Of a DNA stretch of 59,478 nucleotides, positions 2,165 through 48,551 are shown piece after piece (position 1 is the first letter of the stretch; each line of letters begins with the position of its first letter). The stretch covers positions 1 to 59,478 of the forward strand of contig CAJOCQ010000010.1 of NCBI GenBank assembly GCA_905233135.1, read 5' to 3'. Position numbers and translations under genes: made by a program. The notes under the pieces are model-generated. The model did no database searches and was not told the origin of the DNA. It saw only the letters and a program-made list of their open reading frames with translations. This DNA comes from an uncultured Selenomonadaceae bacterium (lineage in GTDB: Bacteria > Bacillota > Negativicutes > Selenomonadales > Selenomonadaceae).

Positions 2165-2965
2165 ATGCAGTTATTCACAGGAAAAAAAGTTGGCGTAAGC
2201 AAGGAAGAAAAATCCCTTCCCTACTACAAATATTTTGAACGTGAATTGGCAAAAATCCCCGAAGAAAAAATAAAAATTCTCGAAAAACCGTCGGCAATAC
2301 CGGCGGTTTCTTTTGCGGAAAAAAATTTATTTTTGGCGGGCGAAGATAAAAATTTTTGCCAAACAGGTTACGGCGTCGCGCAGGACGGCAGCGGCTTTGT
2401 CTGCAATGAAACTTATATGCCGAGCGTTACAAGTGAAATGCTTGATTGGTGGTTTGCGTGGCACAGCGTCGGCGCAGATTTGCGCTATAAAATTTGGGAT
2501 AACGAGGATCATTATTTTGCACGCGCGGATAACGCCGCTTATGTTTGCAACCCCGAAATTCCCGTAAATCAGAAAACTTGGGGCGTTAATCACTACATTT
2601 TGGAAGATATTGGCAACGGCGCGGAATTTGTAAAACTTTGTTTTAAACGTCCAAAAGATTTCGGCTACGATGAAAAAATTATCGGCAGTGCAACTTGTCA
2701 ATCTTTAGTTTGTGCAATAGGCGCGGGGAATTGCGCGGCGGCAATGACGCATAAATGGTACGCTTACAAGGACGGCGTTAATTTCTGTTCAAGATTTTGG
2801 ATAGGTTACGCGGAAGTTGACGGCAAAATTATTTGTACGTTGCCTGAAGGCGTAAAAATTCCCGTTGAAGTTGCAAAAGGCTTGTTCGCTCATAATATCA
2901 AAGAATTTTCAAACTTGGCGGCAATATTGCCTGAAGTTTACGCTGAAAATAAAGATAATTTTTAA
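2165..2965 (+). CDS. PhlG/phloretin-hydrolase-like metal-dependent C-C hydrolase
   Basis: Resembles the DAPG hydrolase (PhlG) family, zinc enzymes that cleave the carbon-carbon bond between an acyl group and a phloroglucinol ring, as in diacetylphloroglucinol or phloretin breakdown. The sequence shows MPSVTSEMLDWWFAWH (residues 85-100), DLRYKIWDNEDHYFAR and GVNHYILEDIG. Candidate metal ligands H116, E147, H243 and E247 keep two of the spacings I recall for PhlG (31 and 4 residues). At 266 residues it is near family length. Its place is odd: between infA and rpmJ, 15 bases after infA and ahead of a hairpin and a repeat. The substrate is unknown; a plant polyphenol or acylphloroglucinol would suit a gut or rumen bacterium, but that is inference. 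Confidence 0.8.
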   Translation: MQLFTGKKVGVSKEEKSLPYYKYFERELAKIPEEKIKILEKPSAIPAVSFAEKNLFLAGEDKNFCQTGYGVAQDGSGFVCNETYMPSVTSEMLDWWFAWHSVGADLRYKIWDNEDHYFARADNAAYVCNPEIPVNQKTWGVNHYILEDIGNGAEFVKLCFKRPKDFGYDEKIIGSATCQSLVCAIGAGNCAAAMTHKWYAYKDGVNFCSRFWIGYAEVDGKIICTLPEGVKIPVEVAKGLFAHNIKEFSNLAAILPEVYAENKDNF

Positions 2966-3000
2966 GACACAAGGTACAAGTCACTAGGTACTAGACATTA

Positions 3001-3025
3001 GGGGGGCGCACAGGACGTGCGCCCC
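3001..3025 (+). terminator. GC-rich hairpin after the PhlG-like gene
   Basis: GGGGCGCACAGGACGTGCGCCCC forms an eight-to-nine-pair stem 36 bases after the stop. No strong T tract follows, so termination is possible but not certain. Almost the same stem (GGGCGCAC/GTGCGCCC) is used after codY near 52.0 kb, where it does have a T-rich tail. Confidence 0.5.
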
Positions 3026-3095
3026 GTAAAAACTCGCGCAGGATGCGCGGCAAATTTTTATTGCTACGCTTATAATTGCAACTCGTCAATGCTGG

Positions 3096-3278
3096 TAATA
3101 CGCCCGTCACTAAAGCCGCAGCTTGACCTTTTTTAGAAGCGTAGGAAAAAGTTGGAGCCCCAAAGGGGGCATCCAGTTACTAAGTGCGTATCAGACCTTA
3201 GCGGCCCTGACGGGCGAAAAAAAGCACTTTTTCTTTGGTTCTTTCTTTTTTTGCTTTGGAAAAAAAAAAGAACATTTT
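3096..3278 (+). repeat. 183-bp dispersed intergenic repeat, copy 1
   Basis: Starts TAATACGCCCGTCACTAAAG and ends in a T-rich/A-rich hairpin built on the loop GCTTTGG. Inside, CGCCCGTCA near the left end is exactly complementary to TGACGGGCG about 110 bases on, so the transcript can fold into one long closed structure followed by a terminator-like hairpin. Copies of the same length lie at 8860-9042 (+) and 36068-36250 (-). No open frame is conserved. It sits between the PhlG-like gene and the rpmJ promoter, splitting the ribosomal operon. Confidence 0.85.
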
Positions 3279-3330
3279 AAATAAAAAAAACTTAAAACTA
3301 AAAAATTAAAATTAAAAAATAAAAAAATTG

Positions 3331-3359
3331 TAGACAAAATCAAAAAAATATGTTACATT
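3331..3359 (+). promoter_or_regulatory. Predicted sigma-70 promoter for rpmJ-rplQ
   Basis: TAGACA (-35), a 17-base spacer and an extended -10 TGTTACATT lie just ahead of the rpmJ leader, behind a very A/T-rich stretch that could act as an UP element. It would restart transcription of the ribosomal genes after the inserted PhlG-like gene and repeat. Matches are four of six at the -10, so moderate confidence. Confidence 0.5.
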
Positions 3360-3385
3360 ACTGATTCGTTAAGGAGGCGGTAAAT

Positions 3386-3499
3386 TTGAAAGTAAAACCG
3401 TCAGTAAAACGCCTTTGCGACAAATGCAAAATTATTAAACGCAAAGGGCGTGTAATGGTTATTTGTGAAAATCCCAAGCACAAACAGCGTCAGGGATAA
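3386..3499 (+). CDS. rpmJ: 50S ribosomal protein L36
   Basis: A 37-residue protein with TTG start, reading [20 protein letters not shown] and ending NPKHKQRQG. It has the zinc-binding C-x2-C...C...H pattern of the C+ form of L36. AAGGAGG lies five bases ahead of the TTG. L36 sits in the large subunit near the base of the L7/L12 stalk region. It is 24 bases upstream of rpsM, as in most Firmicutes spc/alpha operons. Confidence 0.95.
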
Positions 3500-3523
3500 T
3501 TTTTTTGAGGAGGTGAAAATTTT

Positions 3524-3895
3524 ATGGCACGTATAGCCGGTGTAGATTTGCCACGTGATAAGAGAATTGAATACGCATTGACGTATATTTTTGGAATTGG
3601 GCTTCCCACTTCACAAAAAATTTTGGAAATGACGGGGGTCAATCCCAATACCCGCACAAAAGACCTCACGGATGATGAAGTTGTAAAACTTCGTGATGCC
3701 ATCGACCATAATTTCGTTGTCGAAGGTGACCTTCGCCGCGATATTCAGATGGACATTAAGCGACTCATTGATATTGGCTGCTATCGCGGACGCCGCCACC
3801 GTCTTGGTCTTCCGGTTCGTGGACAAAACACCAAAAATAATGCTCGTACTCGTAAAGGTCCCAAAAAGCTTGTACAAGGCAAAAAGAAGGACTAA
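3524..3895 (+). CDS. rpsM: 30S ribosomal protein S13
   Basis: Head protein of the small subunit that contacts the P-site tRNA and the B1 bridges. The sequence [20 protein letters not shown], the helix-turn-helix-like YIFGIG, and the basic tail [17 protein letters not shown] are canonical; 123 residues is the normal length. A GAGGAGGTGA ribosome binding site precedes the ATG. Part of the alpha operon rpsM-rpsK-rpsD-rpoA-rplQ. Confidence 0.98.
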
Positions 3896-3963
3896 GGATT
3901 AAGGGCTAAGGGTTAAAGGGTAAGAAATTTACCTTAAACACGAATTAAGGAGGCAAAAAAACT

Positions 3964-4356
3964 GTGGCAACTAAAAGAACAGTTCGCAAACAGAAAAAAG
4001 TTCGCAAGAATATTGAATACGGCGTGGCGCATATCAGCTCCACGTTTAATAATACAATCGTAACTATTACCGATAAAAGCGGCAACGCCCTTTCTTGGGC
4101 AAGTGCAGGCGGCTTGGGTTTTCGCGGCTCCCGTAAAAGTACACCTTTTGCGGCTCAACAAGCAGCGGAAGTTGCAGCAAAGGCGGCTATGGAACACGGC
4201 TTGAAACAAGTTGAAGTTTATGTTAAAGGTCCCGGCGCAGGGCGTGAAGCGGCTATCCGTTCATTGCAGGCAACAGGGCTTGAAGTCAATATGATTAAAG
4301 ATGTTACGCCAATTCCGCACAACGGCTGCCGCCCGCCTAAACGCAGAAGAGTTTAA
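3964..4356 (+). CDS. rpsK: 30S ribosomal protein S11
   Basis: Platform protein of the small subunit at the E site. It begins at GTG after AAGGAGG. Diagnostic stretches are [38 protein letters not shown] and the C-terminal [17 protein letters not shown]; length 130 is usual. The gap before it (3896-3925) carries half of a heptad-type repeat (GGGCTAA/GGGTTAA words). Confidence 0.98.
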
Positions 4357-4371
4357 TGGAGGTATTTTTTT

Positions 4372-4965
4372 ATGGCAATAGATAGAGTACCTGATTTAAA
4401 ACGCTGCCGCTCTCTCGGTATTGAACCCGCCGTTATCGGGCGTGCGCGTCAATCCAAGCGTAAAGCGCAACGCATTCAGCGTAAAGTCAGTGAATACGGT
4501 TTACAGCTTAAAGAAAAGCAAAAAGCTAAATTTATTTACGGTGTCCTTGAACGTCAATTCAGAAATTACTACGAAAAAGCTAAAACAATGCAAGGCGTTA
4601 CAGGCGAAAATCTTTTAATACTTTTGGAACGCCGCATTGACAATGTTATTTTCCGTCTCGGCTTCGCAAATACACGCCGTCAAGCGCGTCAAATTGTTCG
4701 TCACGGTCATATTACCGTCAACGGTAAACGCCTCGATATTCCTTCAGCTCTCGTTAAAGTCGGCGACGTTGTCGAAGTTTGCGAAAAAAGCCAATCCAAC
4801 GAACTTTTTAAAGCTATGAAGGAAACTAACAACGCACTTAGCGCACCCGCGTGGCTTGAATCAGATCAAACTGCTTTAAAAGGTAATGTTGTAAGATTCC
4901 CGAGCCGCGATGAAATTGACGTTCCGATTAATGAACAATCTATCATTGAATTGTACTCCAGATAA
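4372..4965 (+). CDS. rpsD: 30S ribosomal protein S4
   Basis: Primary 16S rRNA-binding assembly protein and, in many bacteria, translational repressor of the alpha operon. The S4 RNA-binding domain is clear at about residues 90-155 ([34 protein letters not shown]). The N terminus [16 protein letters not shown] lacks the four-cysteine zinc site of the C+ form, and its wording matches the S4 of Negativicutes as I remember it. 197 residues; ATG after GGAGG. Confidence 0.97.
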
Positions 4966-4997
4966 TATCTGCCCGTTTGTAAATTTTTTTGTCAGCA

Positions 4998-5066
4998 AGT
5001 TAGAAGTTAGGATTTAGGCGCAGGGAAAATTTCCCTAATCCCTAACCCCTAGCCCCTAACCCCTGA
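4998..5066. repeat. Heptad palindromic intergenic repeat (rpsD-rpoA)
   Basis: The clearest heptad example: left-arm units such as TTAGAAG, TTAGGAT, TTAGGCG, a turn at CAGGGAAAATTTCCCT, then right-arm units TAATCCC, TAACCCC, TAGCCCC, TAACCCC. Left and right arms are imperfect complements, giving one long hairpin with seven-base periodicity. It sits inside an operon, so it probably modulates rather than ends transcription. Confidence 0.75.
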
Positions 5067-5094
5067 ATCAAACAGGCAGGAGGTTTATTGTTAG

Positions 5095-6117
5095 ATGACG
5101 GACATCGAAACGAAAATCGAAATAGAAGAACTTAGCCCCGACGGGCGTTACGGGCGTTTTGTCTGCGAGCCGTTAAATCCCGGCTACGGGCATACAATCG
5201 GCAACGGGTTGCGCCGAATGCTTTTATCTTCGCTTGAAGGCGCGGCGGTTACTTCAATAAAAATTGACGGCATACTCCACGAATTTTCAACAATTACGGG
5301 CGTTGTCGAAGACGTTACAAATATTGTGCTGAATATCAAACAACTTTGCTTGCGTATGGAAGGCGACGAGCCGCATACTGTCAGAATTGACATTGACGGC
5401 GAAAAAGACGTTATTAAAGACGTTACAGGCGCGGATGTTATCTGCGATGCCGACGTTGAAGTTGTCAATAAAGATTTGCATATTGCAACCGTAAACGAAA
5501 AAGGACAGTTGCATATGGAAATGAGAGTTGAGCACGGTTACGGCTATGTTTCAGCCGATAAAAATAAACGCGATGACGACGTTATTGGCACAATTCCGAT
5601 TGACTCAATTTTTTCGCCAATTCTGCGCGTAAGCTACGCCGTACAAGATACGCGCGTTGGCAACGTAATGGACTATGATAAATTAATTTTGGAAGTTTGG
5701 ACTAACGGCACAATCAGCCCCGATGCGGCAATTTCTAAGGCGGCTGAAATTTTTATAGCGAATTTGAAACTTTTCCAAAATATTGAAGAAGTTCACCCCG
5801 AAGAAGTTGCCAAAGTTGAAGAAGAAAATACCGATTTGTTGCCGCAACAAAACGTTGTTGTACAAGATTCGCCCGAAGATGAATCCAAAAAAATTCTCAA
5901 TACTACTATTGAAGATTTAGATTTATCAGTAAGATCTTTCAACTGCTTAAAGCGCGCAGGTATCAGCGTTGTCGGCGATTTGGTTGCAAGGTCTGAAGAA
6001 GATATGATGAAAGTTCGCAATTTGGGGCGGAAATCTTTGGAAGAAGTCAAAAAGAAATTGGAGGAAATGTGCTTATCATTTAAACCCGAAGATGATACTT
6101 TTCCGCCAGAAGAATAA
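5095..6117 (+). CDS. rpoA: DNA-directed RNA polymerase subunit alpha
   Basis: The dimeric alpha subunit scaffolds beta and beta prime through its N-terminal domain and contacts UP elements and activators through its C-terminal domain. N-terminal motifs are EPLNPGYGHTIGNGLRRMLL and the dimerisation strands; the C-terminal helix-hairpin-helix reads SVRSFNCLKRAG...RNLGRKSLEEVKKKL. It has 340 residues against about 315 usually; the excess is an acidic inter-domain linker (about residues 232-265, rich in E and D) and an acidic tail ending TFPPEE. ATG after AGGAGG. Confidence 0.97.
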   Translation: MTDIETKIEIEELSPDGRYGRFVCEPLNPGYGHTIGNGLRRMLLSSLEGAAVTSIKIDGILHEFSTITGVVEDVTNIVLNIKQLCLRMEGDEPHTVRIDIDGEKDVIKDVTGADVICDADVEVVNKDLHIATVNEKGQLHMEMRVEHGYGYVSADKNKRDDDVIGTIPIDSIFSPILRVSYAVQDTRVGNVMDYDKLILEVWTNGTISPDAAISKAAEIFIANLKLFQNIEEVHPEEVAKVEEENTDLLPQQNVVVQDSPEDESKKILNTTIEDLDLSVRSFNCLKRAGISVVGDLVARSEEDMMKVRNLGRKSLEEVKKKLEEMCLSFKPEDDTFPPEE

Positions 6118-6139
6118 ATTTTGAAGAGAGGATAACGTT

Positions 6140-6478
6140 ATGAGTTATAGAAAACTCGGCAAGAATACCGGCGCAAGAAAAGCGTTGTTTAAAAGTCTTC
6201 TCGCCGCACTTTTTACTCACGGGCGAATTGAAACAACCGAAGCACGCGCCAAAGAACTTCGCAAATTCGCCGAAAAAGTCATAACACTTGCAAAACGCGG
6301 CGACCTTGCAGCGCGCCGTTTGGCTATTCAAGCCGTTGCAAATGTTGAAGTCGTTCACAAAGTTTTTGAAGAAGTTCCCGAAAAATACGGCGACAGAACC
6401 GGCGGCTATACGCGCATTTTGAAACTTGGTCCGCGTCGCGGAGACGCCGCGCCAATGGTTTTAATGGAACTCGTTTAA
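6140..6478 (+). CDS. rplQ: 50S ribosomal protein L17
   Basis: Large-subunit protein near the peptide exit tunnel. [20 protein letters not shown], the motif [20 protein letters not shown] and the C-terminal [19 protein letters not shown] are canonical; 112 residues. Last gene of the alpha operon. The ecfA/truA/rplM genes that often follow in Firmicutes are not here; a separately promoted fatty-acid cluster begins instead. Confidence 0.98.
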
Positions 6479-6559
6479 TTTACGAAAAAATTTTTAAGCC
6501 GTTGCAGATTTTGAAACTATTTGAAAAGTTTTTGAAGAAATTAAAAAAATACGGCGGCT

Positions 6560-6575
6560 TTTAAACTAGTTTAAA
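6560..6575. promoter_or_regulatory. Perfect 16-bp palindrome upstream of fabG (candidate operator)
   Basis: TTTAAACTAGTTTAAA is a perfect inverted repeat ending five bases before the -35 of the predicted fabG promoter. Size and position suit a dimeric regulator such as a MarR-type FabT or DeoR-type FapR, but the sequence does not exactly match the consensus I recall for either. No other copy was noticed in the window. Confidence 0.45.
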
Positions 6576-6580
6576 TTAGC

Positions 6581-6609
6581 TGGACAATGATTATTGTTTG
6601 TGGTATATT
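6581..6609 (+). promoter_or_regulatory. Predicted sigma-70 promoter for the fab cluster
   Basis: TGGACA (-35, five of six), 17-base spacer, TATATT (-10, five of six). The implied transcription start (about 6616) would fall inside the GGGAGG preceding fabG, giving an extremely short leader. Either the leader is nearly absent or the true promoter is slightly upstream. Confidence 0.5.
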
Positions 6610-6632
6610 TCGGCGGGAGGTTTTTTTCGTTA

Positions 6633-7385
6633 ATGGTAGAAAAATTTTTAACCGAAAAAGTTGCACTGGTAACGGGAGCATCACGCGGAATAGGGCGTGC
6701 AGTTGCATTGAAACTTGCTGACGCGGGCGCAAAAGTCGCTATTAATTTTGCGGGAAATATTGAAAAAGCCGAAGAGGTTAAAGCCGAAATTGAATCACGC
6801 GGCGGCGAAGCTATCCTCGTTCAAGGCAAAGTTGATAATTTTGAAGTCGTCAACGCCATTGTAAAAAAAATCGTCGAAACGTGGGGAACAGTCGATATTC
6901 TGATTAACAACGCCGGTATTAATCGTGATAACCTTCTTTTGAGAATGACCGAAACGGAATTTGACGAAGTTATTGCAACAAATTTAAAGGGCGTTTTTAA
7001 CTGCACAAAGGCTGTAACGCGGATTATGATGAAACAACGCAGCGGCAAAATTGTTAATATGACTTCGGTTGTCGGCTTGACGGGCAACGCAGGGCAGGCT
7101 AATTACGCGGCGGCAAAATCGGGCATTATCGGTTTTACAAAATCTGTTGCAAAAGAATTGGCGGCGCGCGGCGTTACTGTTAATGCCATTGCGCCCGGCT
7201 TCATTACCACCGACATGACAGCTAAACTTCCCGAAAAAATTAAGGAAGAAACTTTAAATCAAATTCCAATTGGAAAATTCGGAACGCCCGAAGATGTTGC
7301 AAATTTGGCGGCGTTTTTAGTATCAGATCAAGCGGCTTACATTACCGGGCAAGTTATCAATGTTGACGGCGGAATGGCAATGTAA
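6633..7385 (+). CDS. fabG: 3-oxoacyl-[acyl-carrier-protein] reductase
   Basis: NADPH-dependent reduction of 3-ketoacyl-ACP in the type II fatty-acid elongation cycle. It is a short-chain dehydrogenase of 250 residues with nucleotide motif TGASRGIG (14-21), NNAG (92-95), catalytic S145, Y158 and K162 (NYAAAKSG), and the C-terminal VINVDGGMAM typical of FabG. The open frame extends 13 codons further upstream, but those codons overlap the promoter; the ATG at 6633 follows GGGAGG and gives the normal FabG length. First gene of fabG-acpP-fabK-fabF. Confidence 0.95.
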   Translation: MVEKFLTEKVALVTGASRGIGRAVALKLADAGAKVAINFAGNIEKAEEVKAEIESRGGEAILVQGKVDNFEVVNAIVKKIVETWGTVDILINNAGINRDNLLLRMTETEFDEVIATNLKGVFNCTKAVTRIMMKQRSGKIVNMTSVVGLTGNAGQANYAAAKSGIIGFTKSVAKELAARGVTVNAIAPGFITTDMTAKLPEKIKEETLNQIPIGKFGTPEDVANLAAFLVSDQAAYITGQVINVDGGMAM

Positions 7386-7436
7386 GGGCTGAAAACTAAG
7401 AACTAGGGGCTAAAGATTTGCAGGGGAGGTGTAATT

Positions 7437-7664
7437 GTGTCAACTTTTGAAAGAGTCAAAAAGATTGTTGTAGAACAACTCGGCGTTGAAGCCGACGAAG
7501 TTCAAATGTCTTCAACATTCGTTGACGATTTGGGCGCAGATTCGCTTGATATTGTCGAATTAATTATGGCATTTGAGGAAGAATTTAATATCGAAATTCC
7601 CGACGAAAAAGCCGAAAAAATTAAAACGGTTGAAGATGTTGTAAAATACATTGACGAAGTTTAA
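7437..7664 (+). CDS. acpP: Acyl carrier protein
   Basis: Small acidic helical protein carrying growing acyl chains on a 4'-phosphopantetheine arm. The attachment serine is S36 in the motif [10 protein letters not shown]. 75 residues, GTG start six bases after GGGGAGGTG. It ends [11 protein letters not shown], as usual. Placed between fabG and the FabK-like reductase, with a terminator directly after it. The short gap before it carries heptad-type words (ACTAAGA, ACTAGGG). Confidence 0.96.
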
Positions 7665-7687
7665 TAAAATACATTGCAAAAAAAATT

Positions 7688-7720
7688 AAATCCCGTGAAA
7701 GAACTTCGCGGGATTTTTTT
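7688..7720 (+). terminator. Intrinsic terminator after acpP
   Basis: AAATCCCGTGAA and TTCGCGGGATTT form a stem with a short AGAAC-type loop, followed by seven T. It lies between acpP and fabK, so acpP, needed in excess, may be more abundant than the downstream enzymes. Confidence 0.85.
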
Positions 7721-7747
7721 AAAATTACAAGAATTGGAGGTCTGCCT

Positions 7748-8692
7748 GTGAAACTTCCTGAACTGAAAATAGGAAACAAAGTAGCAAAAATCCCAATCGT
7801 ACAGGGCGGAATGGCAATTCGCCTGTCAACGGCGCGGCTTGCTGCGGCAGTTGCCAACGAAGGCGGAATAGGATTAATTGCGGCGTCGGGAATGACGCAC
7901 CCCGAATTACGCTACGAAATAAATTTGGCGCGTTCGCTGACCAACGGGATAATCGGAATAAATATAATGGTGGCGGCGTCAGATTTTGCGGGAATAGTGC
8001 GGACGGCGATTGACGCGGGAATAGATTTAATTGTTGCGGGCGCGGGATTTTCACGCGATATTTTCGGACTCGGCAAAGAATCAAATACTCCGATTGTCCC
8101 AATAGTTTCTTCAGTCAAGCTTGCGAAAATTTCAGAAAAACTCGGCGCGGCGGCGATTGTTGTAGAAGGCAAAGAAGCGGGCGGACATTTGGGCACGGAT
8201 ATTTCTGCGCGAGAATTAATTCCGCCGATTCGCGCAGCGGTAAAAATTCCCGTAATTGCGGCGGGCGGCGTTTTGAGCGGCAAAGATATTGCTGATATGC
8301 TGAATATGGGCGCAAACGGTGTACAGATGGGCTCCAGATTTGCGGCTAGTCTTGAATCAAACGGCGCGCCGAGTCTCAAAGAATATTATTTAAAATCTCA
8401 ACCTGAAGACGTTGTAGTTATCAACAGTCCTGTCGGCTTGCCGGGTCGAGCAGTACGTACGCCCTTTTCAAAAAAAGTTATGGAGGGCAGGGTTCCGCCG
8501 AAAACTTGCGATAATTGCTTAAAAGCTTGCAAACATAATTTTTGCATTGTACGCGCGTTGACGCGGGCGCAGCAAGGCGACCTTGAAACAGGCTTGGTTT
8601 TTACGGGCGAATATATGCCGCGTATTAAAGAAATTTTGCCCGTCAAAGAAATTATCAGCCAACTAGTTACAGAGGCAGAATTAGCGGGCTGA
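7748..8692 (+). CDS. fabK: FabK-like FMN-dependent enoyl-ACP reductase / nitronate monooxygenase family
   Basis: TIM-barrel flavoprotein of the 2-nitropropane dioxygenase family; with the fab neighbours the likely role is reduction of enoyl-ACP, the last step of elongation, in place of FabI. Motifs seen: IVQGGMAIRLS (FMN loop), GVNIM-like GINIMVAASDF, VEGKEAGGHLG, IPVIAAGGVLSG and GVQMGSRFAAS. A C-terminal cysteine cluster (CDNCLKACKHNFC, about residue 257 on) could bind metal or a cluster and is not in the best-known FabK enzymes, so a different oxidoreductase role remains possible. 314 residues, GTG start after TTGGAGG. Confidence 0.75.
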   Translation: MKLPELKIGNKVAKIPIVQGGMAIRLSTARLAAAVANEGGIGLIAASGMTHPELRYEINLARSLTNGIIGINIMVAASDFAGIVRTAIDAGIDLIVAGAGFSRDIFGLGKESNTPIVPIVSSVKLAKISEKLGAAAIVVEGKEAGGHLGTDISARELIPPIRAAVKIPVIAAGGVLSGKDIADMLNMGANGVQMGSRFAASLESNGAPSLKEYYLKSQPEDVVVINSPVGLPGRAVRTPFSKKVMEGRVPPKTCDNCLKACKHNFCIVRALTRAQQGDLETGLVFTGEYMPRIKEILPVKEIISQLVTEAELAG

Positions 8693-8721
8693 AATCGAAA
8701 ATTAGGGCGGTTAAAATTTTT

Positions 8722-8793
8722 TTAATATAATTGCCTTAAAACAGTTTAACCACTGCGCTACGGGCAAATATGACGCTTTTAACGCTATATTTG
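8722..8793 (+). repeat. 72-bp dispersed intergenic repeat, copy A
   Basis: TTAATATAATTGCCTTAAAA through CTACGGGCAAATATGACGC to GCTATATTTG. A second copy of the same length is at 17630-17701, with differences scattered over it. CAAATAT and ATATTTG at the right end can pair. It lies in the 400-bp fabK-fabF gap, 66 bases ahead of 183-bp repeat copy 2. No gene is seen in that gap. Confidence 0.75.
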
Positions 8794-8859
8794 AAAAAAG
8801 CGGAGAACTTTTTTAAGATTTCAGGGTTCAAACGATTAGAGAATTTAAATAAGTGTTTG

Positions 8860-9042
8860 TAATACGCCCGTCACTAAAGCCGCAGCTTGACCTTTTTTAG
8901 AAGCGTGGGAAAAAGTTTGCGCCCCAAAGTGGGCATCCTGTTACTACGTGCGTACAGAAACCGAGCGGCCCTGACGGGCGATAAAAAGCACTTTTTCTTT
9001 GGTTCTTTCTTTTTTTGCTTTGGAAAAAAGAAAGAACATTTT
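8860..9042 (+). repeat. 183-bp dispersed intergenic repeat, copy 2
   Basis: Same length and ends as the copy at 3096-3278, with about a dozen or more substitutions, mainly in the middle. The closing pair CGCCCGTCA/TGACGGGCG is intact, and the terminal hairpin is perfect: GTTCTTTCTTTTTT, loop GCTTTGG, then AAAAAAGAAAGAAC. The substitutions avoid the two paired regions, which suggests selection on RNA or DNA structure. Confidence 0.85.
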
Positions 9043-9095
9043 AAAATAGAAATTTAAAAATAGAATAAAAAATTCTTACGAAGGGAGCGTTCTAA

Positions 9096-10343
9096 TTGAA
9101 AAACAGGGTAGTCATTACCGGAATTGGTCCCGTAACGCCTATTGGAATTGGTAAGGAAAAATTTTTTGAAAGTTTAAAAGCCGGCAAAAACGGCATCGAC
9201 AGAATTACAAATTTTGACCCGACAGAATACACTTGCCAAATTGCGGGCGAAGTTACAGATTTTAACGCTGAAGATTTCATTGACAAAAAAGAAATTAAAC
9301 GAATGGATAAATACGCGCAGTTTGCATTTGCCGCCGCTAAACTTGCTCTGGAAGATTCAAAATTGGATTTGAGCACGATTGACAGGGAACGCGCGGGCGT
9401 TTTTGTCGGCAACGGAATTGGCGGAATGCAAACTCTTCATAATCAGTACGAAAAACTTTTTTTAAAGGGAATTTCCAAAGTCAGCCCGTTTTTTATTCCA
9501 ATGGTAATTGCGAATATGGCGGCGGGACATATTGCTATTGCGTTTGGTATTCACGGACCAACAGAAAGCATAGTTACAGCCTGCGCGAGCGGCACAAATG
9601 CTATTGGCGACGCTTTTTTGGCGATACAAAACGGCGAAGTTGATTATATGTTTGTAGGCGGCACGGAGGCGGCAGTTTCGCCCGCAGGTATTGCAGGTTT
9701 TGCCGTAATGAAGGCACTTTGCACGGATCATAACGACGACCCCGCGCACGCTTCAAGACCTTTCGACAAAAACCGCAGCGGCTTTATTATGGGTGAAGGT
9801 GCAGGATTTTTATTGCTTGAAAAGCTGGAAATGGCGAAGGCGCGTAACGCGCATATTTACGCGGAAGTTATCGGCTACAGCAGAAACAATGACGCCTACC
9901 ACATTACAACGCCTGCGCCCGACGGCGAATATGAGGCGAAATGTATGCAGCTTGCACTTGAGAACGCCGGAATTAAGCCCGAAGATATAGACTACATTAA
10001 CGCGCACGGCACTTCGACGCACTTTAACGACGCGGGCGAAACTAAAGCTATTAAAGCAGTTTTCGGCGAACACGCCTATAAATTAGCTGTATCGTCAACA
10101 AAATCTATGATGGGGCATATGCTCGGCGCGGCGGGAGCTGTTGAAGCCATTGCAACTGCTTTTGCGATTGACGAGGGAATTATTCCGCCAACGATTAACT
10201 ACGAAACGCCCGATGAAGGCCTGGACCTTGACTACGTGCCGAATAAATCCCGCGCTGCAAATGTCAATGTTGCTATGTCAAATTCTTTCGGATTCGGCGG
10301 GCATAATGCCTGCATTGTTCTCAAAAAATATAACGGTGATTAA
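9096..10343 (+). CDS. fabF: 3-oxoacyl-[acyl-carrier-protein] synthase II
   Basis: Condenses malonyl-ACP with an acyl-ACP in fatty-acid elongation. Thiolase fold, 415 residues. The Cys-His-His triad is visible as C163 (TACASGTN), H304 (NAHGTSTHFND) and H341 (MMGHMLGAAG), with K336 conserved and the C-terminal SNSFGFGGHNACIV. TTG start after GGGAGCG. The initiating KAS III (fabH) and malonyl transferase (fabD) are not in this cluster and must lie elsewhere. Confidence 0.96.
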   Translation: MKNRVVITGIGPVTPIGIGKEKFFESLKAGKNGIDRITNFDPTEYTCQIAGEVTDFNAEDFIDKKEIKRMDKYAQFAFAAAKLALEDSKLDLSTIDRERAGVFVGNGIGGMQTLHNQYEKLFLKGISKVSPFFIPMVIANMAAGHIAIAFGIHGPTESIVTACASGTNAIGDAFLAIQNGEVDYMFVGGTEAAVSPAGIAGFAVMKALCTDHNDDPAHASRPFDKNRSGFIMGEGAGFLLLEKLEMAKARNAHIYAEVIGYSRNNDAYHITTPAPDGEYEAKCMQLALENAGIKPEDIDYINAHGTSTHFNDAGETKAIKAVFGEHAYKLAVSSTKSMMGHMLGAAGAVEAIATAFAIDEGIIPPTINYETPDEGLDLDYVPNKSRAANVNVAMSNSFGFGGHNACIVLKKYNGD

Positions 10344-41354: not shown

Positions 41355-42830
41355 AATTTTACTCTCGCCGACTTTGTCAAAAGTTTCCAAAATATCTCTG
41401 TCAGGTTCTTTGTCAAGTTTGCTTACAACAAAAATTGCAATCAGTGAAAAAATAAAGCCCGGTACAATTTCATAAAGTTCAAACGGCGCAAAATTTTTCC
41501 ACGCAATAATAGTCACGCCGCCGACAATTATCCCCGCAATTACGCCAATTCTTGTTGTACGTTTCCAAAACAAACTCATCAACAGCGCAGGACCGAACGC
41601 CGCGCCGAATCCTGCCCAAGCGTACGCTACCATATCCAAAATAAAACTGTTCGGATTGAATCCCAAATAAACCGCTATTGACGCAATGATTAAAACTGAC
41701 GCGCGGGAAATCCATACCAATTCAGTTTGTGTTGCATCCTTTCTAAGTAAAGTTTTATAAAAATCCTGCGCGAAGGCTGACGCCGCTACAAGTAATTGAG
41801 AAGAAGCAGTTGACATAATCGCCGCCAAAACTGCCGACAATACCACGCCCGCAATTATTGGCGGAAATAAATCATTCGTCATTACCAAAAAAACTTTTTC
41901 GGCGTCCGTGCCTTCAAGCGGCGTTGTCAAATAAACAGTGCCGACCATTCCTACTGCTACCGCCGCCGCCAAACTTAATATAACCCAAGTCATTGCAATT
42001 CGCGTTGCAGGCGGAATTTCTGCGGTTGACTTTACCGCCATAAATCTAACCAAAATATGCGGTTGCCCGAAATATCCTATTCCCCAAGCCATTAAAGAAA
42101 TTATTTCCAACGCCGTAATTGTTGAGCCGTCAGGTTTCAAAAACGGGTCGAACATTGACGCCTTGAAATTTGAAATTGCAGTAACAGTTTCGCCGAATCC
42201 GCCTAAACTCATCGCCGCGCAAATTGGTACAAGCAATATTGCAAAAAACATCATTACGCCTTGAATAAAATCTGTTCGACTGACCGCCAAAAAGCCGCCT
42301 ATTAATGTATAAAAAACTACCGAGCCCGCGCCCAAAATTATTGCAACAGAAAAATCTAAGCCGAAAACAGTTTCAAAAAGTTTTCCCGCTGATACAAAGC
42401 CGCTTGAAGTGTACAAAATAAAAAATATCAAAATAAAAATTGCAGGTACAATTCGCAAAAGGTTGCTTGTATCTTTGAAACGATTCTGCAAAAATTCGGG
42501 CAAAGTTAAAGCGTTGCCTGCAAGTTCGGTATATCTGCGAAGGCGCGCGGCTACAAAATACCAATTCGCCCAAGTGCCTATTGCAATTCCGACTGCTATC
42601 CAGCCCGCGTTTAAGCCGGCAAGATATGCAAATCCCGGAACGCCCATTAACATCCAGCCGCTCATATCTGACGCTTCAGCAGAAAGCGAAGTTACCCACG
42701 CGCCGAGCCGCCTGTTGCCCAAAAAGTAGTCGCTCATATTTTTTGTTTGCCGATAATAATAAACGCCGATTGCCATCATTAAGCCGATATAAAAAACAAA
42801 CGCATTAATTACCATTACTTCATTTGTCAA
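41352..42830 (-). CDS. putP: Sodium/proline symporter (SSS family)
   Basis: 492 residues, about 13 helices. PutP marks: YYYRQTKNMSDYFLGNRRLG, SAEASDMSGWMLMGVPGFAY, GTWANWYFVAARLRRYTELA, GAGSVVFYTLIGGFLAVSRTDFIQ (two parts of a family stretch) and the sodium-site region TASSQLLVAASAFAQDFYK. Imports proline with sodium for nutrition or osmoprotection. TTG start behind GGAGAGA. No putA or regulator next to it. Confidence 0.92.
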   Translation of the reverse strand: MTNEVMVINAFVFYIGLMMAIGVYYYRQTKNMSDYFLGNRRLGAWVTSLSAEASDMSGWMLMGVPGFAYLAGLNAGWIAVGIAIGTWANWYFVAARLRRYTELAGNALTLPEFLQNRFKDTSNLLRIVPAIFILIFFILYTSSGFVSAGKLFETVFGLDFSVAIILGAGSVVFYTLIGGFLAVSRTDFIQGVMMFFAILLVPICAAMSLGGFGETVTAISNFKASMFDPFLKPDGSTITALEIISLMAWGIGYFGQPHILVRFMAVKSTAEIPPATRIAMTWVILSLAAAVAVGMVGTVYLTTPLEGTDAEKVFLVMTNDLFPPIIAGVVLSAVLAAIMSTASSQLLVAASAFAQDFYKTLLRKDATQTELVWISRASVLIIASIAVYLGFNPNSFILDMVAYAWAGFGAAFGPALLMSLFWKRTTRIGVIAGIIVGGVTIIAWKNFAPFELYEIVPGFIFSLIAIFVVSKLDKEPDRDILETFDKVGESKI

Positions 42831-42847
42831 CAGTATCTCTCCTTTGT

Positions 42848-42880
42848 AAAAAAAAATACCCGATAATTATAATTATCGAG
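42848..42880 (-). terminator. Intrinsic terminator of the DUF499 gene
   Basis: CTCGATAATTATAATTATCGGG followed by TATTTTTTTTT on the minus strand. It ends the defence-like cassette before putP. Confidence 0.85.
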
Positions 42881-42955
42881 ATTTTTTTTGTAAAGTTTTA
42901 TAAGAACAGTTGCCGTATTTGCAAAACTATAATACTTGCTCTGCCGCAATTATTT

Positions 42956-45724
42956 TTAATTAAAACCCCAATTTTTTATTTCTAAATTATTGCAATTCCA
43001 TTCAACAGTTTCTTGTATTTCTTTAGAAATACCTGCAGGCGCAGAAATGTTCATTTCAATATGAACTGAAATTTTGGCGTCGGGTAAATTTTTAAAAAGA
43101 AACCATATTTCGTCAACGCAATTATTAAAATCCTTAGTAAGGCGCATTGAGTCTAAATTTTTATTCATAAAAAAATTTTGGGGCAAAGGTTCCGATTTCG
43201 GCGGCGTTGTTTCTGTTGAAGTTTCAGTTTCTGCCGCTTCAGTTTCTGCGACTTCTTCTGCAACAGATTCATCTTTCGCCAAAAGTTTTTCGGCAACTTC
43301 CGCCTTTACCAAAAATTTTTCTTCCGAAGCACTCAAGAAAATTTTTTCGCCAAATTTTAAATTGGTAAAATCTTCGTCGTCAGCCAATGCAAAACTTTTC
43401 GCCTCAATGCCTTTTGTAACGCATTCAATCAAAACTTTTTTATCGTTAAGGCGCGGCAAATAATAATACGTTGCAAAATATTCCCAAAGTTTGTTCAACG
43501 ACACGCAGTCATTTTTTTGCCAAATATATTCATCCAACAAACTTTTTAAATAAATATTGCCGAGCTCTTTAAGGCACATTTCACATTTCAAAATTTTTTG
43601 CGCGGCAACTTCAATGTTATCGTCGTTCGTGCAAACAATTTTTTCAACTTGCCAATCAAAATTATTTAAATTGGTGCCGCTTTTCGGCGCAAATATTCTG
43701 CTGTACGCCTGCGAAAGTTTCATTTTAAAATTTTCTTCGGATTTCTTTAAATTTTCTTCTGCGTCCATAATCTTGAGAGCGTCAAGGTTTAACAACTTTG
43801 TTTCATCCAAAATTTCACTCCACGCCTTATAATCTCGTACAGTCTCTATTAAATTATCCAAATTTTTTTTGTCCGTCGCCATAAAAAGCAAAGTGTTTTT
43901 GTAAGTGCGCGGAACATTGCCGCGCGTTTCCAAAATATTTTTTGTAAATGTAAAAGCCGATTTATCTTCTTGCCCCTCGACAAAATATTCAGGCGGCAAA
44001 ATCACAAGCCGCGCCGTTTGTTCGTCGCTTACGTCATTGGAATTTTTCGGGCAAATGTGCACTGCATTAAAATATTGCCTGCCGCGCCAATTTCTTAACC
44101 ATTTTTCAATTTCAGAAAAAATTTCGTCTTCAGAAAATTTTTCCCGCTTATCCTCAACCAATTTGCGAAGTGTCGGCGTTACGCCGAACCAAAGCCGCTC
44201 ATTGCGCGAATAAAGATAATATAAATTTGACTCCAACGCCGAAAGTGCGTCATTGTATGTTGAAATATTTTTTGAATCTTCAGGTTGAATCGTGCTCAAG
44301 TGAATTTCATTTTTTTCAATCCCGCGAATACCGCCCGCCTTATCAAGCGGCGCAGTTCCCATAAAAATTGCGCGCGCAGTTTTCCGCGCCGCCAATAATT
44401 GCCCGAAACGCGGTTTACTGCCGTCAATTTCTCCTGCCTTCGACTTTTCGCCGTCAATTTCCGAATTTATTATTGAATCCCAGTTGCCCTTCAAATATTT
44501 TGTCATTTCGTCACGCACCGGCGCAAAATTTAAAGGTATATCGCCCGGCATTATCAGCGCACTTTGCGAATTTTCACGCCAAAGATAATAAATGACATTC
44601 GCCATTAACCGCAATACGCCGCGCGTTTTTTGGAAGCCGTCAAGCTGCGTCCAAGCATTGTAAAGATAATCAAACAATTTCGGATGAATAGGATAACACG
44701 ACAGCAATTTTTCTTTGTAGCTTGACTGATGACTTTCATTCGGGAAATCGTCTTTTTCATTGCTGTACATATTGAAAAAAGCGTTGCAAGTATTTTTGCG
44801 CGCGGCTTCGTCGTTGCAAGTTTTAAAAAGCCTGCGCCGCACAATTTCATAACCTTCCGTAACAGTTACGGGCGACCATACAAATTCCATTCGCCCGAAA
44901 ACTTTTTTAACCTGCGCCAAAATTTTTTTGCCGTTTTCGTCAACCGTTTCAGTTTCAGATTCGGGAATTGAAACTACAACCGCGCAATTTTTGCTTGCCT
45001 TCGCCGCCTCCGTCAATTCCTGTATAAAACTTATAAAGTTGCCCGAAGTCCCGCCGTCCAATTCTTTATCGCCGAGCTTGCGCCCGTACGCCACAATTTC
45101 GTCAATCAAAATTAAACACGGGCTCGCCGCGTCAAAAATTTGTTTCAGCAATTCCACGCCGGGCGAAATTTTTTGCACGTCATTTTCTTTAACCATTTCG
45201 TAAAGTTCAGGCTTGCCCGCCGCCGCTGAAAGGCGCGCCGCTATTTCGCCCCAAAATGTCGTCTTCAAAGGATTTTCCCAAGTGCCGACTATCGCCGCAA
45301 CATTTACTTTGGGCAAAAATTCAACGCCCGCCGCGTTCAAAACTTCACGCACTGCCGAAGATTGCTCGGGGCGAATTTTCCCGCCGAACAAATGATATAA
45401 CGCCAAAAGGCTATGAGTTTTCCCGCCGCCGAATGATGTTTGCAACTGAATAATCGGCGCACCGTTGCCGCTCGTCAATCGTTTCAATGTTTCGCTCAAA
45501 AGATTTTTCAAGCCGCCCGTTAAATATGTTCGTGCAAAAAATTCTACAGGGTCGGAGTATTCTGTTCCGCCTTCGCCTTTGCCGCTTACTACCTGCGCCA
45601 AATCTGCCGCAAATTGCGCTTGCTGATAATTGCCGCGCGTTACGTCGAGGTGCGGCTCTATTACATTTCGCCACGCTTCCAAATGCCCGTAAATTTTATT
45701 TTTGTTGCCGCTTTTTTTGCCCAT
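42956..45724 (-). CDS. DUF499 AAA-type ATPase
   Basis: 922 residues, ATG start 15 bases after the DUF1156 stop. Walker A QTSFGGGKTHSLLALYH (95-111) and Walker B CLILIDEIVAYGRK near 205 define the COG1483/DUF499 ATPase family; further marks are GTWENPLKTTFWGEIAARL and KTRGVLRLMANVIYYLWR. A Glu/Ala/Thr-rich acidic insert (EEVAETEAAETETSTETTPP) near 835-865 precedes a C-terminal domain with MRLTKDFNNCVDEIWFLF. DUF499 proteins regularly accompany DUF1156 methylases and are predicted to work in modification or defence systems. Third gene of the cassette. Confidence 0.9.
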   Translation of the reverse strand: MGKKSGNKNKIYGHLEAWRNVIEPHLDVTRGNYQQAQFAADLAQVVSGKGEGGTEYSDPVEFFARTYLTGGLKNLLSETLKRLTSGNGAPIIQLQTSFGGGKTHSLLALYHLFGGKIRPEQSSAVREVLNAAGVEFLPKVNVAAIVGTWENPLKTTFWGEIAARLSAAAGKPELYEMVKENDVQKISPGVELLKQIFDAASPCLILIDEIVAYGRKLGDKELDGGTSGNFISFIQELTEAAKASKNCAVVVSIPESETETVDENGKKILAQVKKVFGRMEFVWSPVTVTEGYEIVRRRLFKTCNDEAARKNTCNAFFNMYSNEKDDFPNESHQSSYKEKLLSCYPIHPKLFDYLYNAWTQLDGFQKTRGVLRLMANVIYYLWRENSQSALIMPGDIPLNFAPVRDEMTKYLKGNWDSIINSEIDGEKSKAGEIDGSKPRFGQLLAARKTARAIFMGTAPLDKAGGIRGIEKNEIHLSTIQPEDSKNISTYNDALSALESNLYYLYSRNERLWFGVTPTLRKLVEDKREKFSEDEIFSEIEKWLRNWRGRQYFNAVHICPKNSNDVSDEQTARLVILPPEYFVEGQEDKSAFTFTKNILETRGNVPRTYKNTLLFMATDKKNLDNLIETVRDYKAWSEILDETKLLNLDALKIMDAEENLKKSEENFKMKLSQAYSRIFAPKSGTNLNNFDWQVEKIVCTNDDNIEVAAQKILKCEMCLKELGNIYLKSLLDEYIWQKNDCVSLNKLWEYFATYYYLPRLNDKKVLIECVTKGIEAKSFALADDEDFTNLKFGEKIFLSASEEKFLVKAEVAEKLLAKDESVAEEVAETEAAETETSTETTPPKSEPLPQNFFMNKNLDSMRLTKDFNNCVDEIWFLFKNLPDAKISVHIEMNISAPAGISKEIQETVEWNCNNLEIKNWGFN

Positions 45725-45739
45725 AATATCACCGCCTCT

Positions 45740-48460
45740 TTAAGAAAAATTATTTAAACTCGTCTGCTCTTCCTTCGCCCTGTTACGATATTCTTGTGAC
45801 TTATCCGAAATTTTTTCCCAATCAACTACAAATTGGTTATAAAAATTTCCTTCCCGCGCCCAATGTTTTCTTTCGCAAATATCGTACAGCCTGTACGCCA
45901 AATTTTTTAAAGAGTCTTGTTCGCAGTCAAACTTTGACAAAAGTTCAGCCGCGCCTTCATTGCCCGCAACGCCGAATACTTCAACCAACGCCTGCACTCT
46001 CAACCACGCGCAATTTGTTTTTGCAAGCTTTTCTGTCCAATCTTTGAGGAGATTTCGGTTGTCGTCCAAAATTTCTATTTCGTCCCTGTCACGCAAGCGC
46101 ACTTCGCCGAGTTTTGAAATTACCGCGCCCATTTCTTCCAACGTGGCAACAGAAATATTTTTTGCGCGTGCCAACACGTCAGCCACGCCAAATTTTACTT
46201 CGTTGAAGCCGTTCTGCGTGAATAAGTCTACGCAAAATTGGCTTGCCGCGTCAAGTTCGCCCGTTTGCGTGCCGAAAAATTCTGCAAGCTCCGCGTTTAT
46301 CATTTTCAGCGCGTCGCGTACCGTTATTTCAGTGTCGCTCATATCTGCAACTCTTGCGTAGCGCGAATAAATTGCTATTCCGGGTCCTATTGCCGCCTGC
46401 GCCATATCTGCCGGCGCAACGTTTGTATTCTGCCACGTTGCAAGCGCGGGTTTTAATTCTGTTTTCAGCGCGTTGAGAAAATTATTTTTGCTGCAGAATT
46501 TATTTTCGGGCGGGCGTTTCCTGCAAGCAAAAACTATTGACGACGCAAGCGCGTTTACACTATTTTTTAACGCCGTTGTTAATTCTGTTCGCATCGGTAA
46601 AGTTGCCGTTATCTGAAAACCTGCGCGAATTATCGAAGTAAGCATTGTCTCCCAGCCCGTCGACGCCTCGCCGTCAATTTCTGTTTCCTTTTGCTTGAAA
46701 GCGTAGTAAATCGTAATTGGGAAATCTGCGCGCGCCGCGTCATAAATATTTTTTAAAACTTGAAACATTCCCGCTTCAAAAAAATCTTTCGCCGCCGCCT
46801 TACTGCCGCCGTGACGGTAGGAACTTGCAATTAGTTCTTGGTCTTTTGCAAAAGTCATTCGCCCGAAAATTTGCGGGTAAATATTTTTCAAATTGCGCCG
46901 CAACCATATATAAAAAAAGTCTGACAAATCCGCGTAGTTGATATTGTCATAATACGGCGGGTCTGTCGAAATAATAACGTTGCTTATTGGAATTTTTTCA
47001 AGCGCGTTATGTTGAAAAACTTCGCCTTCAACTTTTGCGGGCAATTCTTTAACGCTTTTATAAATCCAATTCAGCATATTATCAAAACAACCGCTGGAAT
47101 TTGAAAAAAAATTTGTCTCTGTAAAATCCCAAACCATTGGGATTGCTTGACGCCCAAAAATATGAGCTAATTTTTCGGCTGAAGTATGCCATAAGCAAAA
47201 AGAATTTCCGTACATTGCCAATTTATCAATCAAAAAAGCAAAGTACACTGCAAGGGCGTCAGCATAATTTTCTGCACCGCCGTCTTCAATAATCTGTTGC
47301 CGAATTTCGGGAATTAAATCACCAAAAGTTGTAAGCGCGGTTAATTGCCTGTTTGTAAAAAGTTGATGCCAATAATTAAAACCATAGCCGCGCCCGCTTA
47401 TAAGGTCGGGGCATTTTTGATTCATTTCCTGTTCAGGATAATCAGGCGGCAAATCGACTTTAGAAATATTTTCGTGTTCGGCGTTGGGCGGGAGGTAAAT
47501 TCTGCCGTGTTCGCCTTCAGCAACAACCGCCATAAGTTGAGCAGATAATCTGCCGTCTTTACCTTCGTTGCGAATGTGTTCGAGCGGGATATTTGCGCCG
47601 CAAAAAAGACAGCGTGCGCCGTTGCGGCTGACAGTGCCTTCAGGAATATTTTTTTCGTCTTTGCAAATTTCAAAAGAAATTTTATCGCCGTCAACAATCG
47701 GCTTGACAGAAATTTTTTGTTTAGTGGAAAGTTGGAAAGAATGAACAAGCGGGGTATGATGTTGGCAAGCGGGATTGGAACAGGCAACGGTACGCGCCCA
47801 AAGCCACGCAATAACAGTTTGCCCGTCGATTTTAGGATAAAGATTTTTCAGCTTGTCGAAGGCGCGCGCCTTCAAAATTTTTCCGTAGTAAAGAATATCG
47901 TTGGCGAGCCCTTCCGCGCCGTGATAACCGCCGACAAGTTTTTTTTCAGCTTCGGGATTGACAGGCGGTTTATTTTTAAACTTGGCGGGAATTTCAATCA
48001 TAGCCTTGTTAATCATAACTGCGACGGGATTTAAATCAGCGGCGTAAGCTTTCAAGCCGAGCCTTTGCGCCTCAAGCGGTATGGTTCCGCCGCCGCCGAA
48101 GATGTCAAGTACAGCAGGTAAATCTTCACCGACAGATTTTTTAATTTCTGCCAATGCTTCAGCAAAAATATTTTCGTTGTTGGAATTTTCCCACTGCACA
48201 ATTTTTTCTATAATTGCAAATAAGCGTTTGCGTTCTTTGTCTTGGTCTTCGGGGGTAGGAAATTTTTCGGGGTGTTCGGAAGGGTCATCAACTATCGAGC
48301 CGAAAAGTACCGCGCGCGCAGTTGCCAAAGGACGCCGCGCCCACCACAAATGCAGCGTTGACGGGTGCCCGTGCCGTATCGATTTTTCTTTTGCAGAGGC
48401 TTTGTTAATTGCGTCGAGCGGCATTGACTCTTCAATTAATTTTTTCTTCCATTGCGTCAA
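45740..48460 (-). CDS. DUF1156-type DNA methyltransferase (COG1743)
   Basis: 906 residues, TTG start. N-terminal DUF1156 signature HPSTLHLWWARRPLATARA (about 34-52), SAM-binding motif DIFGGGGTIPLEAQRLG near 118, zinc-ribbon cysteines CSNPACQH and CLFCGANIP near 225 and 285, and catalytic STDPPYYDNINYADLSDF near 503: DPPY marks an N6-adenine or N4-cytosine methylase with the motif order SAM then DPPY. It probably modifies host DNA, or DNA handled by its ATPase and helicase partners. Middle gene of the cassette; preceded by a terminator with a duplicated arm. Confidence 0.9.
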   Translation of the reverse strand: MTQWKKKLIEESMPLDAINKASAKEKSIRHGHPSTLHLWWARRPLATARAVLFGSIVDDPSEHPEKFPTPEDQDKERKRLFAIIEKIVQWENSNNENIFAEALAEIKKSVGEDLPAVLDIFGGGGTIPLEAQRLGLKAYAADLNPVAVMINKAMIEIPAKFKNKPPVNPEAEKKLVGGYHGAEGLANDILYYGKILKARAFDKLKNLYPKIDGQTVIAWLWARTVACSNPACQHHTPLVHSFQLSTKQKISVKPIVDGDKISFEICKDEKNIPEGTVSRNGARCLFCGANIPLEHIRNEGKDGRLSAQLMAVVAEGEHGRIYLPPNAEHENISKVDLPPDYPEQEMNQKCPDLISGRGYGFNYWHQLFTNRQLTALTTFGDLIPEIRQQIIEDGGAENYADALAVYFAFLIDKLAMYGNSFCLWHTSAEKLAHIFGRQAIPMVWDFTETNFFSNSSGCFDNMLNWIYKSVKELPAKVEGEVFQHNALEKIPISNVIISTDPPYYDNINYADLSDFFYIWLRRNLKNIYPQIFGRMTFAKDQELIASSYRHGGSKAAAKDFFEAGMFQVLKNIYDAARADFPITIYYAFKQKETEIDGEASTGWETMLTSIIRAGFQITATLPMRTELTTALKNSVNALASSIVFACRKRPPENKFCSKNNFLNALKTELKPALATWQNTNVAPADMAQAAIGPGIAIYSRYARVADMSDTEITVRDALKMINAELAEFFGTQTGELDAASQFCVDLFTQNGFNEVKFGVADVLARAKNISVATLEEMGAVISKLGEVRLRDRDEIEILDDNRNLLKDWTEKLAKTNCAWLRVQALVEVFGVAGNEGAAELLSKFDCEQDSLKNLAYRLYDICERKHWAREGNFYNQFVVDWEKISDKSQEYRNRAKEEQTSLNNFS

Positions 48461-48523
48461 CTTGAATCACTCCCAAAAAAATTGTTTCAAAAAATTTTCG
48501 CTACATAAAAAAAAATCCCTGCA

Positions 48524-48551
48524 TAAAAAAAAATCCCTGCATTCGCGCAGG
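48524..48551 (-). terminator. Intrinsic terminator after the helicase gene, with a duplicated 3' arm
   Basis: On the minus strand CCTGC, loop GCGAAT, GCAGG, then nine T, starting six bases after the helicase stop. A second GCAGGGATTTTTTTTTAT copy follows directly (48505-48523), so the upstream arm has two possible partners. It lies between helicase and methylase genes, suggesting less expression of the latter two. It also includes one copy of TCGCGCAGG. Confidence 0.8.

Follow-up and report, generated by a model that had tools for sequence, protein, structure and literature searches.

Sequence tags for DNA uptake have so far been reported from two families only, the Neisseriaceae and the Pasteurellaceae, the uptake signal sequence (USS) of the latter being flanked by an AT-rich side. 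The present analysis concerns a short, highly repeated word, the 9-mer TCGCGCAGG and the 8-mer TCGCGCAG on which it is built, in a 59,478-nucleotide stretch of DNA from an uncultured Selenomonadaceae bacterium (the window; contig CAJOCQ010000010.1). Veillonella parvula belongs to the same class as this host. By analogy with the known tags, TCGCGCAG(R)(W)TTT is very probably a DNA-uptake sequence.

In the DUS/ComP system of the Neisseriaceae, the DNA uptake sequence (DUS) is a short, often intragenic word, its dialects share an invariant inner core and vary in line with phylogeny, and inverted pairs of it are associated with terminators (PMC3630211, consulted in part). The word described here is similar in length, location and dialect structure. 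However, it comes from another phylum, inverted pairs are rare, and the candidate receptor carries a FimT-like tail. The USS system shares with it a GC-rich core, a host with an outer membrane and a minor pilin, which has been proposed as receptor there (PMC12616744, consulted in part), but that family, too, belongs to another phylum, and here three words are found in one genus. The DUS word GCCGTCTGAA occurs once in 531 kb of the window's own genome and not at all in samples of three congeners (G006, G066 and G062), and the USS words AAGTGCGGT and ACAAGCGGT, with 9 and 2 copies in the same 531 kb, are not enriched. In the genomic comparisons that could be run, the word behaves as an uptake sequence; it belongs to neither the DUS nor the USS family.

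Legionella FimT has a conserved GRxR motif at its C-terminus, both arginines of which contribute to DNA binding; FimT is described from gamma-proteobacteria and some Hydrophilales, and the consulted part of the report states no sequence preference (PMC8897410). The candidate pilin presented below is likewise a minor pilin with a C-terminal GRxR, but pilins found here match family models over their N-terminal part only. V. parvula has a competence locus of the type IV pilus kind and prefers its own genomic DNA over a PCR product; in contrast to the present genus, no word of at least 10 bases with at least 100 copies was found by its authors, who left shorter words open (PMC5397411). The Negativicutes are Firmicutes with an outer membrane, and Quinella is a rumen genus of Selenomonadaceae with a Gram-negative wall (PMC9585023, consulted in part and, for the class features, supplemented by general background). 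Among the titles and abstract openings listed by searches of the open-access literature, no earlier report of such an uptake sequence in Negativicutes or Firmicutes appears.

The window's own genome (G000) comprises 2.45 Mb in 35 contigs and is 86% complete. A reading of the window from its sequence only had listed 19 copies of TCGCGCAGG, all of them correctly placed; the exact count is 22, with 14 on the plus and 8 on the minus strand, compared with a mean of 0.71 and a maximum of 4 in 100 dinucleotide shuffles. The overlooked copies start at 9580 (−), 15666 (+) and 39615 (−), the first of them within the interval from 3.05 to 12.76 kb which had been described as empty. Beyond 48.6 kb the 9-mer is indeed absent, but three copies of the 8-mer TCGCGCAG are present (49914, 49926 and 54161). 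By simple calling of open reading frames (ORFs), the copies at 3034 and 48543 do lie in non-coding DNA, as had been claimed. The whole genome contains 751 copies of TCGCGCAGG (373 + 378 by strand) versus 39 (20 + 19) of the same word read backwards, far above chance.

The unit with the strongest excess is built on TCGCGCAG. In a 459-kb sample, consisting of the window and 400 kb of contigs C1 and C2, 290 copies were observed versus 17.6 expected from a third-order Markov model, a 16-fold excess; the genome holds 1532 (756 + 776 by strand), versus 134 + 144 of the reversed word, and the window 37. The following base in the sample is G in 144, A in 101, T in 38 and C in 7 cases and a T-rich stretch lies beyond, so that the unit carries a 3' flank of R-W-T-T. 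The extended form TCGCGCAGATTT is found 39 times in the sample versus 0.3 expected. In G006 the density reaches about 1.2 words per kb, the figure quoted for known uptake sequences (PMC5397411, consulted in part).

The sites are spread over genes, both strands and all six frames. In the 459-kb sample, 269 of 290 sites (93%) lie in ORFs, near the expectation from an ORF coverage of 90%, with 134 in sense and 135 in antisense orientation. Strand counts in stretches of three contigs amount to 101/93, 26/33 and 20/17, and the most lopsided 20-kb bin to 5:13; as far as contig stretches with an unmapped origin can tell, the strand bias along the replichore which had been proposed as a check is not seen. 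With amino acid sequence and codon usage taken into account, TCGCGCAG is in excess in each of the six frames, by 5.7- to 50-fold in G000, 7.5- to 29-fold in G006 and 3.5- to 15-fold in G061, compared with 0 to 1.9-fold in the trait-free G003. The reversed control GACGCGCT ranges from 0 to 8-fold in G000, with 42 of its 60 genic copies in a single frame, and CCGCGCAG, the word of another dialect, from 0.9- to 14-fold. Codon-pair bias, though present, therefore does not explain the six-frame excess, and the statement that the word reflects neither one codon preference nor one protein motif holds: the copies do not come down to a few codon pairs in one frame.

Conservation of the word where flanking DNA diverges is strong. 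In all 17 directed species comparisons the word is retained at more orthologous sites (32–96%) than 8-mers of equal GC content (10–48%). Retention from G006 to G004 is 29/35 (control 688/2342), from G004 to G069 41/47 (997/2523), from G061 to G019 27/32 (2208/4754), and from G000 to G050 6/7 (191/581), to G006 9/13 (244/1307) and to G061 17/34 (605/3173). Fisher tests on four pairs gave p values between 1e-10 and 0.007, to be read in the light of sites being pooled across related genomes, the counts thus not representing independent events. At 310 sites from ten directed comparisons among closer genomes, identity is 0.94–0.98 at the eight word bases and mostly 0.82–0.91 in the flanks, with single positions up to 0.96. 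In nine congeners beyond those compared above, among them G062 with its own dialect and G073 with a modest excess of both words, none of 105 sites is retained, and in seven genomes scored word-free none of 161 TCGCGCAG sites. In G058, 6 of 31 sites are retained (control 13%) and in G023 6 of 10.

Within the genus set of 66 genomes (G000 included), the word occurs in at least three forms, referred to as the T (TCGCGCAG), C (CCGCGCAG) and CT (CTGCGCAG) dialects. By thresholds chosen after the counts were known (ratio 2, 200 copies), CCGCGCAG dominates in 32 genomes, TCGCGCAG in 8 and CTGCGCAG in 1, three genomes have both or neither clearly, and 22 have none. Examples of T dominance are G006 (2335 versus 278 of the reversed word) and G004 (2206 versus 165), of C dominance G066 (2007 versus 278) and G023 (1508 versus 194); the genome rich in CTGCGCAG is G062 (477 versus 44). 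An open word search in congener samples of 100–215 kb likewise returned CCGCGCAG(A/G) in G066, G024 and G023, with CCGCGCAGA found 68 times versus 1.9 expected in G066, and CTGCGCAG(A/G) in G062, with CTGCGCAGA at 43 versus 1.5; the samples of G058 and G003 gave no relative of the word. GCGCAG is common to all three words, and each leans to the 3' flank R-W-T-T. The AT-rich G013 may hold a fourth form, YCGTGCAG: TCGTGCAG (21) and CCGTGCAG (13) add up to 34 copies in 143 kb versus 3 of the reversed GACGTGCT.

A co-evolving recogniser predicts that a site swaps its first base to suit the reader of the host, with the other seven bases staying. When the CCGCGCAG sites of eight C genomes are looked up in alignments with seven T genomes (n = 260), TCGCGCAG is found in 68, CCGCGCAG in 8 and another sequence in 184 cases; for control 8-mers starting with C, the same single change amounts to 229 versus 1510 unchanged (odds ratio 56). 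Taken singly against three T genomes, G066 has 4 translated and no unchanged sites out of 28, and G023 12 and 2 out of 45. In the reverse direction, TCGCGCAG sites (n = 352) read CCGCGCAG in 60, are unchanged in 30 and differ otherwise in 262 cases (control 212 versus 1340; odds ratio 13). The CTGCGCAG sites of G062 are less clear: of 30 in C genomes 6 read CCGCGCAG, and of 42 in T genomes none reads TCGCGCAG.

In a ComEC tree of 32 genomes, whose dialect labels were first assigned by hand before the thresholds (e.g. G057 and G073 as C) and later redone, the eight T-dialect genomes group as a single clade (support 86/84, not starred). Its sister group comprises most of the C genomes and, nested within these, CT; no dialect is seen in the basal branch G003/G052/G053. 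The dialects thus follow descent, as in Neisseriaceae. The sister genomes G070 and G049 have both T and C words in high number (772 and 1244; 625 and 1058) in fragmented assemblies, and perhaps represent a dialect switch under way; they may match the two-dialect genome known from Simonsiella (PMC3630211, consulted in part).

Among 300 genomes of the class, YCGCGCAGR, the single motif surveyed beyond the genus, shows strong enrichment in no genomes other than those of this genus (1861 versus 149 in G006), and not in all of these, exceptions including G013, G054, G067 and G075. The highest counts outside are 902 versus 290 and 899 versus 304, ratios near 3, and ratios above 5 occur only at low counts (e.g. 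183 versus 31). In a search of named genomes with Obg, which may omit records very close to G000, the nearest were two uncultured Selenomonadaceae from ruminants with 93 and 94% Obg identity; the more distant of the 38 loci were labelled Gastranaerophilales, Melainabacteria and a few others. This assigns the window to the Negativicutes.

The sequence-only reading had suggested a search for competence genes, and several were found. ComEC is present in 62 of the 66 genomes, in G000 on contig C5; members of T2SSF, a family covering PilC and Tad relatives, occur in 64. In addition, G000 encodes adjacent pilT and pilC on C19, a PilB/GspE-like ATPase on C6 and a pilin with a GspG/ComGC-like start on C1. 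Three clustered genes (C6:4143-6153) resemble minor pilins by eye. PilT scores above its NCBIfam cut-off, and PilC and the PilB-like ATPase above those of the general Pfam families T2SSF and T2SSE only. A search of G000 with PF07963 (E ≤ 0.1) returned no pilin, and TIGR02532 (E ≤ 10) a single match under the cut-off (E 0.2); results were similar in the other eight genomes searched, with some matches above the cut-off. Motif scans of 531 kb of G000 revealed only a Tad secretin and one doubtful peptidase-motif match. Separate from the type IV pilus genes, a seemingly full Tad/Flp pilus locus can be recognised by eye on C2 (L018:4761-13882). G008, an assembly with 82% completeness, shows no match to the T2SSF/PilC family and almost no dialect words (5 T, 5 C), a pattern that would fit decay of the word after pilus loss.

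A 172-residue pilin ending in SVGRWRGTYVK is the product of the first gene in the minor-pilin cluster. Relatives (E < 1e-12) are found in 49 of the 66 genomes including G000, and several adjoin pilC. GRxR is located near the C-terminus in 22 of the 25 sequences that were extracted correctly, the exceptions being G057, G058 and G023; this count leaves out G049, G022, G002 and G011 (wrong ORF) and L219, L220 and L230 (none extracted). The GspH model TIGR01708 matches residues 5–56 only, far below its cut-off. A minor pilin with the C-terminal SVGRxRG tail is the most likely candidate for the receptor. Seven of the eight T-dialect genomes supply the top seven matches to the G000 pilin (the self-match counted), which fits co-evolution and common descent equally. 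At a completeness of 80% or more, word-rich genomes make up 32 of the 40 that have a strong pilin match and 2 of the 13 that have none; over all 66 genomes the figures are 39/49 and 5/17. A phylogeny-corrected test left 4 independent pairs and was uninformative.

We infer that the organism is competent and takes up DNA; the step from a recognised word to uptake is suggested by analogy with the known systems, by the competence genes present and by the fact that oriented or regulatory signals fit poorly. Extracellular double-stranded DNA would be bound by a sequence-specific pilin of the type IV pilus, so that fragments bearing the word would be preferred by the cell and drawn in by PilT-driven retraction. 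One strand would then pass through ComEC and be recombined. Since word-bearing fragments would be taken up more often, recombination itself could spread the word genome-wide, mostly in genes and on either strand, and keep it there; after a shift in receptor preference, the genome would slowly be rewritten to the new dialect. It is probable, with rather less assurance than for the uptake function, that this represents a third, independently evolved system of self-DNA recognition for natural transformation, the first in Firmicutes, with a FimT-type minor pilin as reader and at least three dialects (T, C, CT), perhaps four, in one rumen genus, the stages of switching being visible in living species including genomes with seemingly two dialects.

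The sequence-only reading had left the choice between an uptake sequence, a Chi signal or FtsK-orienting polar sequence (KOPS), and the site of a regulator; the first fits best and the other two fit badly. A role as regulator's site or terminator was rejected, since 93% of the sites are intragenic, and the enrichment in terminator-like inverted pairs that had been considered is not seen. A recombination hotspot of the Chi type, read by AddAB or RecBCD and changed between clades, would share several features with the word, Chi words being 5–8 bases long, non-palindromic, over-represented and intragenic. But Chi is oriented with replication, and both Chi and KOPS fit poorly with strands so evenly balanced; this test is indirect because the origin is unmapped. 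Site-by-site retention and an excess of 16-fold also go beyond the strength known of Chi, which makes such a hotspot very unlikely. A genome-wide chromosome-organising or nucleoid-protein site is about as improbable. It would agree with the even spread and with a spacing slightly more regular than random (24 gaps below 200 bp versus 35 expected), but known chromosome-organising sites are far fewer, regional or palindromic, and a change of dialect within one genus together with the lack of enrichment in basal congeners points to an optional trait rather than to housekeeping.

A restriction-modification or methylation motif could account for dialects, as methyltransferases show similar changes in recognition. 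Restriction sites, however, are usually avoided and not enriched or maintained, and methylation motifs do not usually extend into a T-rich stretch past their core; we consider this explanation more doubtful still. Codon usage, protein motifs or mutation bias draw some support from other frequent GC-rich words in the genome, e.g. CGGCGGC, and from the up to 8-fold excess of the reversed word in one frame, but against the six-frame excess beyond codon usage, the sharp 8-bp footprint and the odds ratios of the translation, their likelihood is practically negligible.

Several observations weigh against an uptake sequence read by the proposed pilin. The G000 pilins score below family cut-offs, and the family libraries recognise of the candidate only its N-terminal helix, with no FimT/GspH or other Pfam domain; G023, although rich in CCGCGCAG, has GRWS in place of GRxR. 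Neither dprA nor comEA was located, nor was a type IV pilus secretin or a prepilin peptidase, but the genome as a whole was not searched for them. The association between pilin and word is confounded with phylogeny, which makes it weak evidence. By the chosen thresholds 22 of the 66 genomes lack enrichment, although ComEC is nearly universal. Inverted pairs within 40 bp comprise 2 of 349 sites in G000 and are rare compared with the Neisseria DUS, and the word is poorly retained between the most distant genomes, 6/19 from G000 to G019 (control 305/1878) and 17/41 from G061 to G000 (605/5741). No uptake or transformation experiment for this genus was found.

Table 1. Selected sites of the word and their genic context in the window.
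Feature	Coordinates	Strand	Context
TCGCGCAG with G as 9th base	2376..2383	+	in ORF 2165-2965
TCGCGCAG	3034..3041	+	outside called ORFs
Inverted TCGCGCAG pair	8205..8237 (8205 −, 8230 +)		in ORF 7748-8692
TCGCGCAG	9581..9588	−	in fabF (9096-10343); overlooked by sequence-only reading
TCGCGCAG	12764..12771	+	in holB (12303-13301)
TCGCGCAG with 3' T tract (TCGCGCAGGTTTTT)	15666..15673	+	overlooked by sequence-only reading
TCGCGCAG, 9th base A, full 3' tract (TCGCGCAGATTTT)	17725..17732	+	outside called ORFs; not among the 9-mers listed earlier
TCGCGCAG	39117..39124	−	in obg (38736-40022)
Second TCGCGCAG in obg	39616..39623	−	overlooked by sequence-only reading
TCGCGCAG	48543..48550	+	outside called ORFs
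Tandem TCGCGCAG pair	49914..49933	+	in gene for DrmD-like helicase (family match below cut-off)
Span of all 37 TCGCGCAG sites	1494..54168		20 on +, 17 on −

Between 42956 and 51967, the minus strand of the window encodes a DUF499 protein, a DUF1156/methyltransferase-like protein and the DrmD-like helicase, probably an anti-phage defence island, and an ORF of 2155 codons (52994-59461) lies after these genes. From 42.9 kb on, 5 sites are found in 16.6 kb versus 12.4 expected from the remaining window (Poisson 0.016, for a region picked post hoc).

Other frequent words were encountered in congeners. A stereotyped, GATC-rich hairpin ending in GGATCTTTTT is present in 38 copies in 215 kb of G003, several as back-to-back pairs (L059-L061, L100, L133, L159-L165). 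With 34 of the 38 copies outside ORFs, GGATCTTTTT was rejected as an uptake word; the hairpin resembles a terminator family, here in a congener that lacks the uptake word. GGCAACGATAC is a second frequent word in some named loci, and several named congeners carry GGCAACGATA in very high number (L023, L037, L038, L042); both we take to be, probably, codons of RTX Gly-Asn-Asp-Thr repeats.

If true, a third origin of uptake tags, this time among diderm Firmicutes, would suggest a repeated emergence of these systems in bacteria having both an outer membrane and a type IV pilus. With at least three dialects among 66 genomes, a single genus would offer a natural series on the joint change of receptor and word. 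Moreover, an uptake sequence would predict natural competence, and with it a practical transformation tag, in uncultured rumen bacteria.

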